A DNA stretch of 43,359 nucleotides, from contig JMRP01000024.1 of the NCBI GenBank assembly GCA_000708525.1, positions 1 through 43,359 on the forward strand, written 5' to 3'. Below are positions 17,670 through 21,460 of the stretch, piece after piece (the first letter of the stretch is position 1; every line of letters starts with the position of its first letter). The notes beneath the pieces are model-generated. The model was not told where the DNA came from, made no database searches, and saw nothing but the letters and a program-made list of their open reading frames with translations. The stretch is from Cyanobium sp. CACIAM 14 (lineage in GTDB: Bacteria > Cyanobacteriota > Cyanobacteriia > PCC-6307 > Cyanobiaceae). A program made the position numbers and the translations under genes.

Positions 17670-18293
17670 GTGGTCGCCTGGCTGAGCCTGCTCAGCGCCG
17701 GAGCCCTGCTGCTGCGCCGCCGCTGGCCGGAGCAGCGGGAATGGAGCCGCAAGCTGGTGCACATCGGGGCCGGGCCGGTGGTGCTGATCGCCTGGGCGTT
17801 CGGGGTGGATCGGCTGATCGCCGTGCCCGCCGCAGGAGCCGTCACTCTGCTGGCGGCCCTCAACCACCGGGTACGGGTGCTGCCGGCGATCGAGGATGTG
17901 GACCGACACAGCTACGGCACCATCGCCTACGGGGCCTCGATCACCCTGTTGCTGTGGTGGTGGTGGCCCGCCCATCCCGCCGCCGTGGCGGCCGGGGTGC
18001 TGGTGATGGCGTTCGGGGACGGCCTGGCGGGCCTGCTCGGACCGCTGATCTCCTCCCCCAGCTGGACCGTGCTGGGGGAGCGCCGTTCGCTGGCGGGCAC
18101 CGCCGCCATGGGGCTGGCGAGTCTGGGCGTGCTGCTGGGGCTGGGCCTGGTGGGCGGCCCCCCCGCACCGGCGCCCGCCGCGATCGCCCTGATCGCCCTG
18201 GTGGCGACGGGGCTGGAACAGTGGGCCCTGCTGGGCATCGACAACTTCACCGTGCCCCTGGCCGTGGCGGGGCTGTGGAGGGTGCTGAGCTGA
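17670..18293 (+). CDS. Phytol/dolichol-kinase-like integral membrane protein (CTP-transferase-like fold)
   Basis: A 207-aa protein, nearly all hydrophobic helices. Family marks are SRKLVHIGAGPVVL near the start, then HSYGTIAYGASI, MAFGDGLAGLLG with the acidic metal-binding residue, and GERRSLAGTAAM. This is the pattern of the polyprenol/phytol kinase (VTE5/SEC59/CdsA-like) family that uses CTP or UTP to phosphorylate a long-chain alcohol. Phytol salvage from chlorophyll for tocopherol or chlorophyll synthesis is a reasonable inference in a cyanobacterium, but the substrate is not shown by the sequence. The only usual start is GTG at 17670. The frame is open further upstream with no ATG, so a few residues may be missing. 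Its stop overlaps the start of the next gene (TGATG). Confidence 0.8.
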   Translation: MVAWLSLLSAGALLLRRRWPEQREWSRKLVHIGAGPVVLIAWAFGVDRLIAVPAAGAVTLLAALNHRVRVLPAIEDVDRHSYGTIAYGASITLLLWWWWPAHPAAVAAGVLVMAFGDGLAGLLGPLISSPSWTVLGERRSLAGTAAMGLASLGVLLGLGLVGGPPAPAPAAIALIALVATGLEQWALLGIDNFTVPLAVAGLWRVLS

Positions 18294-19756
18294 TGGGCTT
18301 GCTCGGGCGGGGTCTGATCAGCCTGGCCCTGGTGGGGATCCTGCTGACGCTGCTGGTGGCCACCCGGCGGCTGCGCCTGCCACCGCCCCCGCGGGTGATG
18401 CCGCTGGTGGCGGTGATCCTCTGGTGGCTGCTCAGCGGCACCACCCGGCCCGCCGGGCTGCGCTGGCTCGGCGCCGTGGACGATCTGGCGATCGCCTACG
18501 CCCTGATCGGCCTGCTGGCCTGGCTGCTGCTGGAGTGCCCGGCGGCGCTCGGCTGGTGGCGGCCCACCGCCAAGATCCTGCGGGATCTGCTCAGCCTGGG
18601 CCTCTCGGCCGTGGCCACCGTGGTGGTGCTGCAGCGCCAGGCCAACCTCAACCTGGTGGGCCTCGTCACCACCTCCGCCGTGCTCACGGCGGTGATCGGC
18701 CTGGCGGCACAGGAAACCCTCAAGGACCTGTTCGCCGGCATCGAACTTCAGCTGGATCCCCCCTTCCGGGAGGGGGACTGGATCACCGTCGGCACCCAGA
18801 GCGGCACGGTGGAGTCGCTGCACCTGATGAGCACCCGCCTGCGCCGGAGCGACGGCTCGACCGTGAACCTCCCCAACAACACGGTGGCGGACAGTCCGAT
18901 GCACCGGATCAGTCAGCAAGAACCGGTGGGAAACCGCTTCGGCATCGCCCTGGGCTACGAGATCCCGCCGGCACGGGCCCGCCAGCTGCTGGAGCGGGTG
19001 ATGGCCGACAACCCCCTGGTGCTGAGGGAGCCGCCACCGGAGGCCTGGATCGGCGGCTACGAGGACTCCCTGATCCGCTACGAGCTGCTGGCCTTCCAGC
19101 GCGGCGCCTCGGAGCGGGACCGGCTGCGGCTGCGCAGCGCGCTGCTGGAGCAGATCTGGTATGCCCTGGAGCGGCAGGGATGGGAGCTCCCCTACCCGGT
19201 GCGGGAGCTGAAGCGCCGGTCCTTCTGGAGGGATCCCGGCCACCCGGCCGGGGTGGATGCGTCGCTCACGGCCGAACTGCTCCGTCGCAGCTGGCTGTTC
19301 ACCCAGCTGGATCCGGCCCTGGTGGAGCGCCTGGCCCCCTCGGTGCGCTGCCTCCGCTTCGGCCCGGGGGAAACGATCGTGGCCGAGGGGGAGCAGGGCG
19401 ATGCCCTGTTCCAGGTGGTGCACGGCGAGGTGGAGGTGTTCAAGGCCGATGGCTCGCCCCTGGGGCGATCGGTGGCTGTGCTGGGCAGCGACCAGGTCTT
19501 CGGGGAGATGACCGTCTGCACCGGCGAGCCCCGCACGGCCACGGTGCGTTCCCGGGGGGAGTGCGTTCTGCTCGAGGTGGAACGGGACGACTTCCTGCCC
19601 CTGGTGGAGGCGGACCCCGGCCTGCTCGAGGCTCTGGCGTCCATCGTGGGTCGGCGCCGCTCCGAACTGGAGAAGCTCTCCTCTCCCGATGCGGCCCGAC
19701 GCCAGACCTCGATCCTGGAGCGGATGCGGCAGCTGTTCGCCCTGGAGGGGACCTGA
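18293..19756 (+). CDS. MscS-family channel with C-terminal cyclic-nucleotide-binding domain
   Basis: A 487-aa membrane protein. Four or so hydrophobic segments lie before residue 135. The MscS pore-lining and beta domain follow: SAVLTAVIGLAAQETLKDLFAGIELQ at 128-153, REGDWITVG, and NLPNNTVADSPMHRIS at 192-207. After a linker, a cNMP-binding beta-roll spans about 335-450, with the phosphate-binding cassette FGEMTVCTGEPRTATV at 403-418 including Glu405 and Arg414. This architecture defines the bCNG branch of the MscS superfamily, known in cyanobacteria (Synechocystis bCNGa), where cAMP opens the channel. Intact Glu and Arg suggest nucleotide binding. It is coupled to the upstream membrane kinase by a one-base overlap. 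Confidence 0.9.
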   Translation: MGLLGRGLISLALVGILLTLLVATRRLRLPPPPRVMPLVAVILWWLLSGTTRPAGLRWLGAVDDLAIAYALIGLLAWLLLECPAALGWWRPTAKILRDLLSLGLSAVATVVVLQRQANLNLVGLVTTSAVLTAVIGLAAQETLKDLFAGIELQLDPPFREGDWITVGTQSGTVESLHLMSTRLRRSDGSTVNLPNNTVADSPMHRISQQEPVGNRFGIALGYEIPPARARQLLERVMADNPLVLREPPPEAWIGGYEDSLIRYELLAFQRGASERDRLRLRSALLEQIWYALERQGWELPYPVRELKRRSFWRDPGHPAGVDASLTAELLRRSWLFTQLDPALVERLAPSVRCLRFGPGETIVAEGEQGDALFQVVHGEVEVFKADGSPLGRSVAVLGSDQVFGEMTVCTGEPRTATVRSRGECVLLEVERDDFLPLVEADPGLLEALASIVGRRRSELEKLSSPDAARRQTSILERMRQLFALEGT

Positions 19757-19781
19757 GGCCGGACCCGGGAGAGGGCCGGTC

Positions 19782-20138
19782 TCAGGCCCTCAGGGCCTGC
19801 TCACAGCGGCGCTCCCAGTCCCTCTGGGTGCCGATCCCCGCCACCAGCAGCCGTTCGGCGGGCTCCTCGCGCAGGCGCAGCTGCCACTGGCGGATCACGT
19901 CGGCCCTCTCCATCCAGACATCCATCACCAGGCGCTGGATGGCCTCACCGTCCCAGCAGCGGCTGCGGGCGGTGTCGAGGGCCCAGGCCAGCAGGTCGTC
20001 CAGCTGGAAGGGGCGAAAGCCTCCGTAGATGGGCCCCGGTGCCGACGTGGCCTCGGCGGAGGAGGTGGCGGCCTTCTGCTCGAGATAGAAGAGCTGCAAA
20101 GGGTCCGATAAGCCGCAGAACTGCAGGAGATAGGTCAT
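19782..20138 (-). CDS. Uncharacterised 118-aa protein behind a CIRCE-like operator
   Basis: I do not recognise this protein. It starts MTYLLQFCGLSDPLQLFYLEQKA, has an Ala/Pro/Gly linker, and then two amphipathic helical stretches rich in Trp, Arg and Glu (about residues 46-118). No signal peptide or membrane segment is apparent. The ATG has a good GGAGG six bases upstream, better than most genes here, which supports real translation. Upstream lie two inverted repeats, one of which matches the HrcA/CIRCE operator. The gene is the last on this minus-strand run after aroG, 184 bases downstream of it. It ends 25 bases from the convergent channel gene. Confidence 0.65.
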   Translation of the reverse strand: MTYLLQFCGLSDPLQLFYLEQKAATSSAEATSAPGPIYGGFRPFQLDDLLAWALDTARSRCWDGEAIQRLVMDVWMERADVIRQWQLRLREEPAERLLVAGIGTQRDWERRCEQALRA

Positions 20139-20190
20139 CGAAGACCTCCACGACTTGGGGGTCTCAAACGTAACCAGGGCGACCCAGATG

Positions 20191-20209
20191 ACTGTTCAGA
20201 GGGAACAGT
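20191..20209. promoter_or_regulatory. Seven-base perfect dyad upstream of the 118-aa gene
   Basis: ACTGTTC (20191-20197) and GAACAGT (20203-20209) are perfect inverted repeats with a five-base spacer, 53-71 bases before the start of the minus-strand gene. The shape suggests a binding site for a dimeric regulator. It resembles but does not match an E. coli LexA box, because the spacing is one base too long. Confidence 0.4.
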
Positions 20210-20224
20210 TCGTTGCAGAGAATG

Positions 20225-20257
20225 GGATTGGCACTCTCATCGTCGGAGTGCCAATCC
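20225..20257. promoter_or_regulatory. CIRCE-like element (candidate HrcA operator)
   Basis: Perfect 12-base arms GGATTGGCACTC (20225-20236) and GAGTGCCAATCC (20246-20257) are separated by exactly nine bases. The CIRCE consensus is TTAGCACTC-N9-GAGTGCTAA. Here the core GCACTC-N9-GAGTGC is exact, with one symmetrical change (A to G and its partner) in each arm. It lies 87-119 bases upstream of the 118-aa gene on the minus strand and 66 bases after the aroG stop. A transcript hairpin for aroG is an alternative, but there is no T-tract on the minus strand. Confidence 0.65.
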
Positions 20258-20322
20258 TGCCGGGCGGGCAAGGCCCCGGCGGAGCCAATCCACTCATTGC
20301 CGGACGGAGCCACGCCCGGAAA

Positions 20323-21396
20323 TCAGGCCAGGGCAAGGGTTCGGGCCTGAGCTTGTTTCACGGCATCGGCGAGTTCAACGAGCAGATCCAGCGTCGTGGC
20401 CAGATCGATGCAGGCATCGGTGATGCTCTGGCCGTAGGTGAGGGAGGAGAGGTCGGCCGAAATCTTCTGATTTCCTTCCACCAGATGGCTCTCCAGCATC
20501 ACCCCCATGACGTGGATCGAGCCGCCCCTCACTTGTTCGGCCACCTGACGCAGCACCTCCCCCTGGCGTCGGTAGTCCTTGTTGGAGTTGCCGTGGCTGC
20601 AGTCCACCATCAGCCGGGCCGGCAGTCCATCGCGGGCCAGCTGGGCCGCGGCCGCCTCCACCGCCTCGGCGTGGTAGTTCGTGCCGTTCTTGCCCCCCCG
20701 CAGCACCAGATGGCCGTCGGGGTTGCCGGTGGTCGACACGATGGCGGCATGGCCGTCCTTGTTGATGCCCAGGAAATGGTGCGGGCGCGCGGCCGCCTCC
20801 ATCGCGTTGATGGCGGTGGTGACGCTGCCGTCGGTGCCGTTCTTGAAGCCGATCGGCATCGACAGTCCCGAGGCCATCTCCCGGTGGGTCTGGCTTTCGG
20901 TGGTGCGGGCTCCGATGGCGGTCCAGCTGATCAGGTCGGCGATGTACTGGGGCACCACCGGATCGAGCAGTTCGGTGGCTGCCGGCAGGCCGATCTCGGC
21001 CAGGTGCAGCAGCAGCGCGCGGGCCCGCCGCAGGCCGGTGTTGATGTCGTAGCTGCCGTCGAGGTGGGGGTCGTTGATCAGCCCCTTCCAGCCCACGGTG
21101 GTGCGCGGTTTCTCGAAGTAGACCCGCATCACCACCTCCAGTGCATCGCGGTGGCGGCGGTGGGCCTGGGCGATGGCGTCGGCATACTCCCTGGCGGCGG
21201 CCACGTCGTGGACCGAGCAGGGCCCGACGATCACCAGCAGCCGCTGGTCGCCGGCGTGCAGGATCGCCTTGATCCGCTCCCTGGCCTGCTGGACGGTGCG
21301 GGCGGCGGCCTCGGTGATCGGCAGCTCGCGATGCAGCACCGCCGGCGGCACCAGGGGTCGGGTCTCCACCACGTGGAGGTCGGAGGTGGGGATCAT
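20323..21396 (-). CDS. aroG: 3-deoxy-7-phosphoheptulonate (DAHP) synthase, AroG type
   Basis: A 357-aa type I-alpha enzyme for the first step of the shikimate pathway: phosphoenolpyruvate plus erythrose-4-P gives DAHP. Motifs: LLVIVGPCSVHD, MRVYFEKPRTTVGWKGLINDP, LPAATELLDP, IGARTTESQTHREMASGLS, GFKNGTDGS, LRGGKNGTNY and DCSHGNSNKD. These cover the PEP/E4P and metal ligands. The length is like E. coli AroG/AroF/AroH (about 350). Which amino acid inhibits it cannot be told. The ATG at 21396 gives the family N-terminus; the longer frame is Arg/Pro-rich. It lies 64 bases after cobA on the same strand and may be co-transcribed with it. Confidence 0.95.
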   Translation of the reverse strand: MIPTSDLHVVETRPLVPPAVLHRELPITEAAARTVQQARERIKAILHAGDQRLLVIVGPCSVHDVAAAREYADAIAQAHRRHRDALEVVMRVYFEKPRTTVGWKGLINDPHLDGSYDINTGLRRARALLLHLAEIGLPAATELLDPVVPQYIADLISWTAIGARTTESQTHREMASGLSMPIGFKNGTDGSVTTAINAMEAAARPHHFLGINKDGHAAIVSTTGNPDGHLVLRGGKNGTNYHAEAVEAAAAQLARDGLPARLMVDCSHGNSNKDYRRQGEVLRQVAEQVRGGSIHVMGVMLESHLVEGNQKISADLSSLTYGQSITDACIDLATTLDLLVELADAVKQAQARTLALA

Positions 21397-21460
21397 GGAC
21401 CGGCGACGACGACGGGAGCGAAAGATCCACCCTAGGGGCGTCCCTGACGGCGGCTCCGGC

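Follow-up and report, generated by a model that had tools for sequence, protein, structure and literature searches.

We propose that, in Cyanobium sp. CACIAM 14, the HrcA protein of the genome binds a CIRCE dyad at 20225-20257 of the window (the whole stretch of 43,359 nucleotides analysed), represses the 118-aa gene behind it, and releases this gene upon heat. We place the probability of this reading at about 0.8. Judged by its sequence and conservation, the dyad is very probably a real HrcA operator guarding the 118-aa gene, and the gene looks like an overlooked heat-shock gene, since other cyanobacteria show the same combination of operator and gene.

The dyad and its probable target gene

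The features on which the analysis rests are the following:

20225..20257 (core 20231-20251), minus strand: CIRCE operator, proposed HrcA site; a perfect 12/9/12 dyad, conserved before homologues
20193..20207, minus strand: second conserved dyad (dyad 2), TGTTC-N5-GAACA, its centre 41 bp from the CIRCE centre
20167..20172, minus strand: predicted -10 element TACGTT (TAN3T), 20 nt after dyad 2
20144..20149, minus strand: ribosome binding site GGAGGT, read directly, 6-11 nt before the ATG
19782..20138, minus strand: gene of the 118-aa protein, proposed HrcA-controlled heat-shock gene; a listed frame with widespread homologues
20323..21396, minus strand: aroG-type DAHP synthase, tandem upstream neighbour; start codon chosen by us
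18290-19756, plus strand: mechanosensitive channel that carries a cyclic-nucleotide domain; its gene converges on the 118-aa gene

At the sequence level, the dyad reads GGATTGGCACTC-N9-GAGTGCCAATCC, with arms at 20225-20236 and 20246-20257 that are complementary at 12/12 positions. The original prediction of a perfect 12/9/12 dyad with the exact GCACTC-N9-GAGTGC core was thus confirmed, and no other inverted repeat of at least 12 nt was reported across 19700-20700. Published descriptions give the CIRCE sequence as TTAGCACTC-N9-GAGTGCTAA (PMC4755962, PMC7464140, in the portions available); the dyad, as TTGGCACTC-N9-GAGTGCCAA, departs from it by one pair, changed symmetrically.

The pattern is rare. 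The 3.21-Mb genome contains 3 copies of the core GCACTC-N9-GAGTGC, whereas the reversed control pattern has 0. The copies lie before groES, before the 118-aa gene, and within a long coding frame that looks GGDEF-like by eye, the last being read as a chance occurrence. The longer pattern TTRGCACTC-N9-GAGTGCYAA is exact at only 2 sites, before groES and before the 118-aa gene, and the third listed place has 3 mismatches. At the groEL2 of this genome, a search allowing up to 3 mismatches found no CIRCE-like site, which makes the 118-aa gene the second one here, after groES, to have a CIRCE. The original prediction also depended on the genome having hrcA, and a single hrcA match was found (E 9e-29, above the cut-off).

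The neighbouring genes bear out the claim that the dyad can serve no gene other than the 118-aa one. The aroG frame ends at 20323, on the same strand as the 118-aa gene and upstream of the dyad, and the listed plus-strand frame that spans the dyad (20155-21435) is antisense to aroG; the 118-aa gene is therefore the only plausible target. Its ribosome binding site, which the original prediction called strong, reads GGAGGT. On the other side of the gene, a mechanosensitive channel of this kind was also a neighbour in 17/40 family loci with enough DNA and in 0/34 outside the family, and one wider stretch from outside the family (L353) has it as well.

Homologues of the 118-aa gene were found in 63/119 relatives and in 133/400 genomes of the family. 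A search with a distant member as query found homologues in 127/291 genomes across the class, the family itself accounting for 11. The reverse search with this distant member gave the 118-aa gene as its sole match in this genome, which supports the common descent of the homologues. hrcA is present in 62/63 relatives with the 118-aa gene, and the gene is absent from 10/11 relatives without hrcA, an association confounded by kinship. One contig titled as a Bifidobacterium breve MAG (L250, CALPNT020000223.1) carries the cyanobacterial gene and is probably mislabelled or from a mixed bin.

Conservation of the proposed operator

The check proposed with the original prediction, a search for the dyad upstream of homologues, gave a clear answer within the family. 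We examined 130 family loci, 125 of them usable (enough upstream DNA and a clear start). The core was perfect (12/12) in 90, matched at 11/12 in 24 and at 10/12 in one, and was missing in ten; that is, at least 11/12 in 114/125. As a control, the rest of these loci, beyond the upstream 200 nt, gave 0 cores of at least 11/12 over 269,913 positions. When the spacing was varied from 3 to 20, N9 gave 114 matches, and the other matches were at N3 (14), N16 (3) and N17 (4); all 21 of these overlap the N9 site of their own locus. Loop letters vary among the family sites, while the core and its spacing of 9 nt are conserved. Moreover, five base pairs flanking the core covary, and the observed pairing was reached in 0/2000 shuffles (kinship not removed). 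A set of 46 named-organism loci, overlapping the family set, had 45 usable loci and a core of at least 11/12 in 43/45; strains of Cyanobium and Synechococcus and Vulcanococcus limneticus are among the named organisms. A core at this level was lacking in 11/125 family loci, and six of the ten with none belong to one genus (g24).

Outside the family, we required TTRGCACTC-N9-GAGTGCYAA at 15/18 or better within 400 nt upstream of 90 distinct homologous genes. CIRCE was found upstream of 26/90, and every other spacing from 4 to 14 gave 0/90 at the same threshold. Relaxing it to 14/18 gave 28 for N9, 2 for N6, and 1 each for N11 and N13. The control of 104,807 bases contained 0 CIRCE matches. No groE gene was found in the DNA examined around these outside-family loci, and in one family (f32) all 14/14 genomes listed with the homologue carry CIRCE. 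The remaining 64/90 loci had no site at threshold, some of them in genomes with hrcA. With 26 loci carrying the site and 64 without it, the link between CIRCE and the gene is not universal, and is either ancient or arose more than once.

Among 30 other CIRCE-core loci inspected, groES or groEL adjoins the core in 26 and does not in 4. Two loci with homologues had unusual arrangements. In L297 (G093:C1:4410900-4412900) the homologue is cut to 65 aa with an intact CIRCE, and the sequence past the break may, by eye, be inserted DNA; L298, of the same genus, has a full-length frame. In L323 (G616), three near-identical CIRCE-like sites lie 57 bp apart upstream of the homologue.

Predicted promoter layout

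The predicted promoter lies downstream of CIRCE. From the TAN3T element we infer a transcription start for the 118-aa gene at about 20160. Relative to this predicted start, dyad 2 would be a putative regulator site at an activator-like position of about -40, and CIRCE lies behind it, about 81 bp upstream.

The gap between dyad 2 and TAN3T is nearly constant. With 12-30 nt allowed, it was 20 nt in 36/37 loci and 21 in one; a larger run that allowed only 19-21 gave 20 in 90 loci and 21 in 4. The distance between the centres of CIRCE and dyad 2 falls into four classes over these 94 loci: 40-43 (66 loci), 52-54 (8), 62-65 (17) and 71-72 (3). In a strict set of 74 loci the same classes held 61, 5, 5 and 3. 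These distances fit steps of about whole helical turns. On the unique distances of the strict set, the Rayleigh test gave p 0.002 at 10.5 bp, and permutation on shifts grouped by clade (by hand) gave p 0.003 with 7 shifts and 0.014 with 5. The period is only loosely set, since there are few shift events and all periods from 9.5 to 11 bp gave p below 0.02.

The pair of dyad 2 and TAN3T was missing in 20/114 sites, 10 with no dyad-2 match and 10 with a weak one. The weak matches lie at distances of 53, 64, 73 (four), 88, 101 (two) and 102; they were left out of the counts, and some are off the spacing.

A genome search for dyad 2 followed by TA, with up to 1 mismatch, gave 13 places among the matches listed and 3 for the control. 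Two of the listed matches were exact, one being this site, which was listed twice. Of two other places inspected, one falls within coding sequence and the other precedes a small frame. At L126 (G000:C9:47314-47350), another TGTTC-N5-GAACA of this genome precedes a small frame and has no TAN3T 20 nt further on. At groES, dyad 2 was found in 0/30 loci at 9/10 or better.

The 118-aa protein

The 118-aa protein matched 0 Pfam or NCBIfam families at E up to 1, and thus no known heat-shock family there. Its distant homologues gave only matches under the cut-off against the same collections, among them DUF2031 for one member (E 0.0032). By sequence there were also weak helix-turn-helix matches, to a PDB profile (E 0.033) and, for a distant member, to a PHROG antitoxin (E 0.0076).

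A structure model built from 124 sequences reached a pLDDT of 92.3 and a pTM of 0.84 (24 sequences gave a poor model, pLDDT 60.6). It confidently predicts an alpha/beta fold, ordered as strand 3-11, helix, strand 37-41, three helices, strand 97-104 and helix. Residues L46 and W75 are invariant, and G9, F17, D47, W62, W85, L89 and E113 nearly so. No clear structural match was found with Foldseek against the PDB (best E 0.78), with VIA (best Z 4.5) or in a viral structure library (best E 0.26). The absence of a structural match is no proof of a new fold.

One lead for a relative of the 118-aa protein is Slr1674 of Synechocystis, a protector of PSII against heat. Its transcript rose 18.55-fold after 10 min in a microarray, and its mutant kept a basal PSII thermotolerance of 23.2% of the wild type (PMC2865547, in part). 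The Slr1674 operon is described as ending in hypA1 (PMC4759255, in part); by word pattern, no hypA-like frame was found beside homologues of the 118-aa gene in the DNA examined for 274 loci.

Proposed mechanism and alternative explanations

According to a review, HrcA acts through CIRCE as a repressor of heat-shock genes, to which it binds there, and its activity after heat is restored by GroEL (PMC7760821, in part). Following this scheme, HrcA in unstressed cells would occupy CIRCE, some 81 bp before the transcription start and on the same helix face as a second regulator, of conjectural identity and sign, on TGTTC-N5-GAACA at about -40, and the TAN3T promoter would be kept off. Under heat or other protein-damaging stress, HrcA would lose its activity, with GroEL needed to restore it, and leave CIRCE. 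The 118-aa gene would then be induced alongside groESL. A mere block of RNA polymerase fits poorly, because CIRCE lies upstream of the predicted promoter and not over it as at groES.

This layout leaves room for a different role of HrcA on the same site: it could bind and yet help the gene, or only block a neighbouring activator, acting through the dyad-2 protein. The position of CIRCE at about -81, its helical spacing from dyad 2, the activator-like place of dyad 2 at 20 nt before TAN3T, and the cooperative binding of HrcA and HspR in Campylobacter jejuni (PMC7464140, in part) all agree with such a role. However, the available HrcA literature (PMC7760821, PMC7464140) describes repression, and in f32 a stretch that is rich in TA and looks like a promoter (by eye) precedes the site, as would suit blocking; we consider this different role unlikely. 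It is still less likely that the dyad is used by another regulator reading the same words. In one clade the outer bases are TCAG/CTGA here versus TTGG/CTAA or TTGG/CCAA at groES, as a separate reader would allow, but core and spacing are identical to those of CIRCE at groES, the genome has a single hrcA, and hrcA accompanies the gene in all but one of the 63 relatives that have it.

The competing view offered with the original prediction, in which the hairpin ends the transcription of aroG, is very improbable and we have dropped it. The hairpin does lie 65 nt past the aroG end, on the same strand, and a 12-bp stem is possible. However, no T-run follows it on either strand and the terminator scan did not list it. 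The site is kept in 17/19 family loci where the upstream DNA examined showed no aroG, its core and spacing are constant over varying loops, and homologues in other families carry the same sequence. An RNA element at the dyad was also considered and rejected: Rfam gave two matches below the gathering score (E 0.6 and 0.78), neither on the dyad.

Repression by HrcA remains our preferred reading: the switch is of a known kind, while its target, the 118-aa gene, and its layout would both be new. The original prediction is supported, and its reach is wider than first suggested. The HrcA/CIRCE literature surveyed, in the portions available, ties HrcA in cyanobacteria to chaperonin genes and names no cyanobacterial CIRCE target besides the groE genes. 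A distant, helically phased control by HrcA is likewise a mode not described in those portions. We give even odds to a wider claim: that the 118-aa protein belongs to a third family of HrcA/CIRCE targets in cyanobacteria, in addition to groESL and groEL2, and is a heat-shock protein so far unrecognised, perhaps with an unseen fold; and that, among the picocyanobacteria of the family, HrcA acts on it at a distance and in helical phase with a second regulator. A gene under the HrcA operator across many lineages adds a new and directly testable component to the response to protein damage, and the phased upstream layout would show HrcA working otherwise than by occupying the start site.

Comparison with known systems

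Regarding stress activation of cyanobacterial chaperone genes, a parallel is given by the promoters activated by Rre1 (PMC13421787, in part). Rre1 was tried as the binder of dyad 2 and rejected: its proposed motif GTNCGGK, as given there, fits the left half in 3/76 loci. On either strand of the 200 nt upstream of the 118-aa gene in the window, GTNCGGK was not found.

HrcA and CIRCE control cyanobacterial groE (PMC7760821, PMC2662882, PMC4755962, each in part), and HrcA may also affect genes without CIRCE, according to the same review (PMC7760821). The groEL2 CIRCE is similar in being that of a second CIRCE gene beside groESL in a cyanobacterial genome (PMC5381637, in part), whereas the target before the present dyad is not a chaperonin.

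The original prediction called for comparison with the groES CIRCE, and the likeness held for the sequence of the operator and not for its placement. The groESL CIRCE shares the GCACTC-N9-GAGTGC core, and within the genus the distance to the start codon is similar (left edge at -100 to -162 for groES and -119 to -144 for the 118-aa gene). By contrast, TAN3T abuts CIRCE, ending one base before the core, in 29/30 groES sites, and does so in 1/114 family sites of the 118-aa gene (4 more have it two bases further off) and in 1/26 sites of outside-family homologues. The abutting TAN3T of groES is what one would expect if transcription starts in the CIRCE loop, to the first base of which a groES start was mapped (PMC2662882, in part). 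The groES core is also the weaker one, at 11/12 in 14/17 genus loci against 12/12 in 24/34 before the 118-aa gene, so that in this genus the operator of the 118-aa gene is mostly better kept than that of groES. In the groES loci of the genus (L104-L105, L107-L112, L114-L119), 12 of the 14 imperfect cores read GCAGTC.

Finally, the promoters of Campylobacter jejuni, where the available text reports that HrcA and HspR bind neighbouring sites cooperatively (PMC7464140), resemble the layout proposed here in that HrcA shares one promoter with a second regulator. In that species, the start site is covered by HrcA, and its partner lies upstream. Here, the order is the opposite: CIRCE is upstream, and dyad 2, of another sequence, is promoter-proximal.
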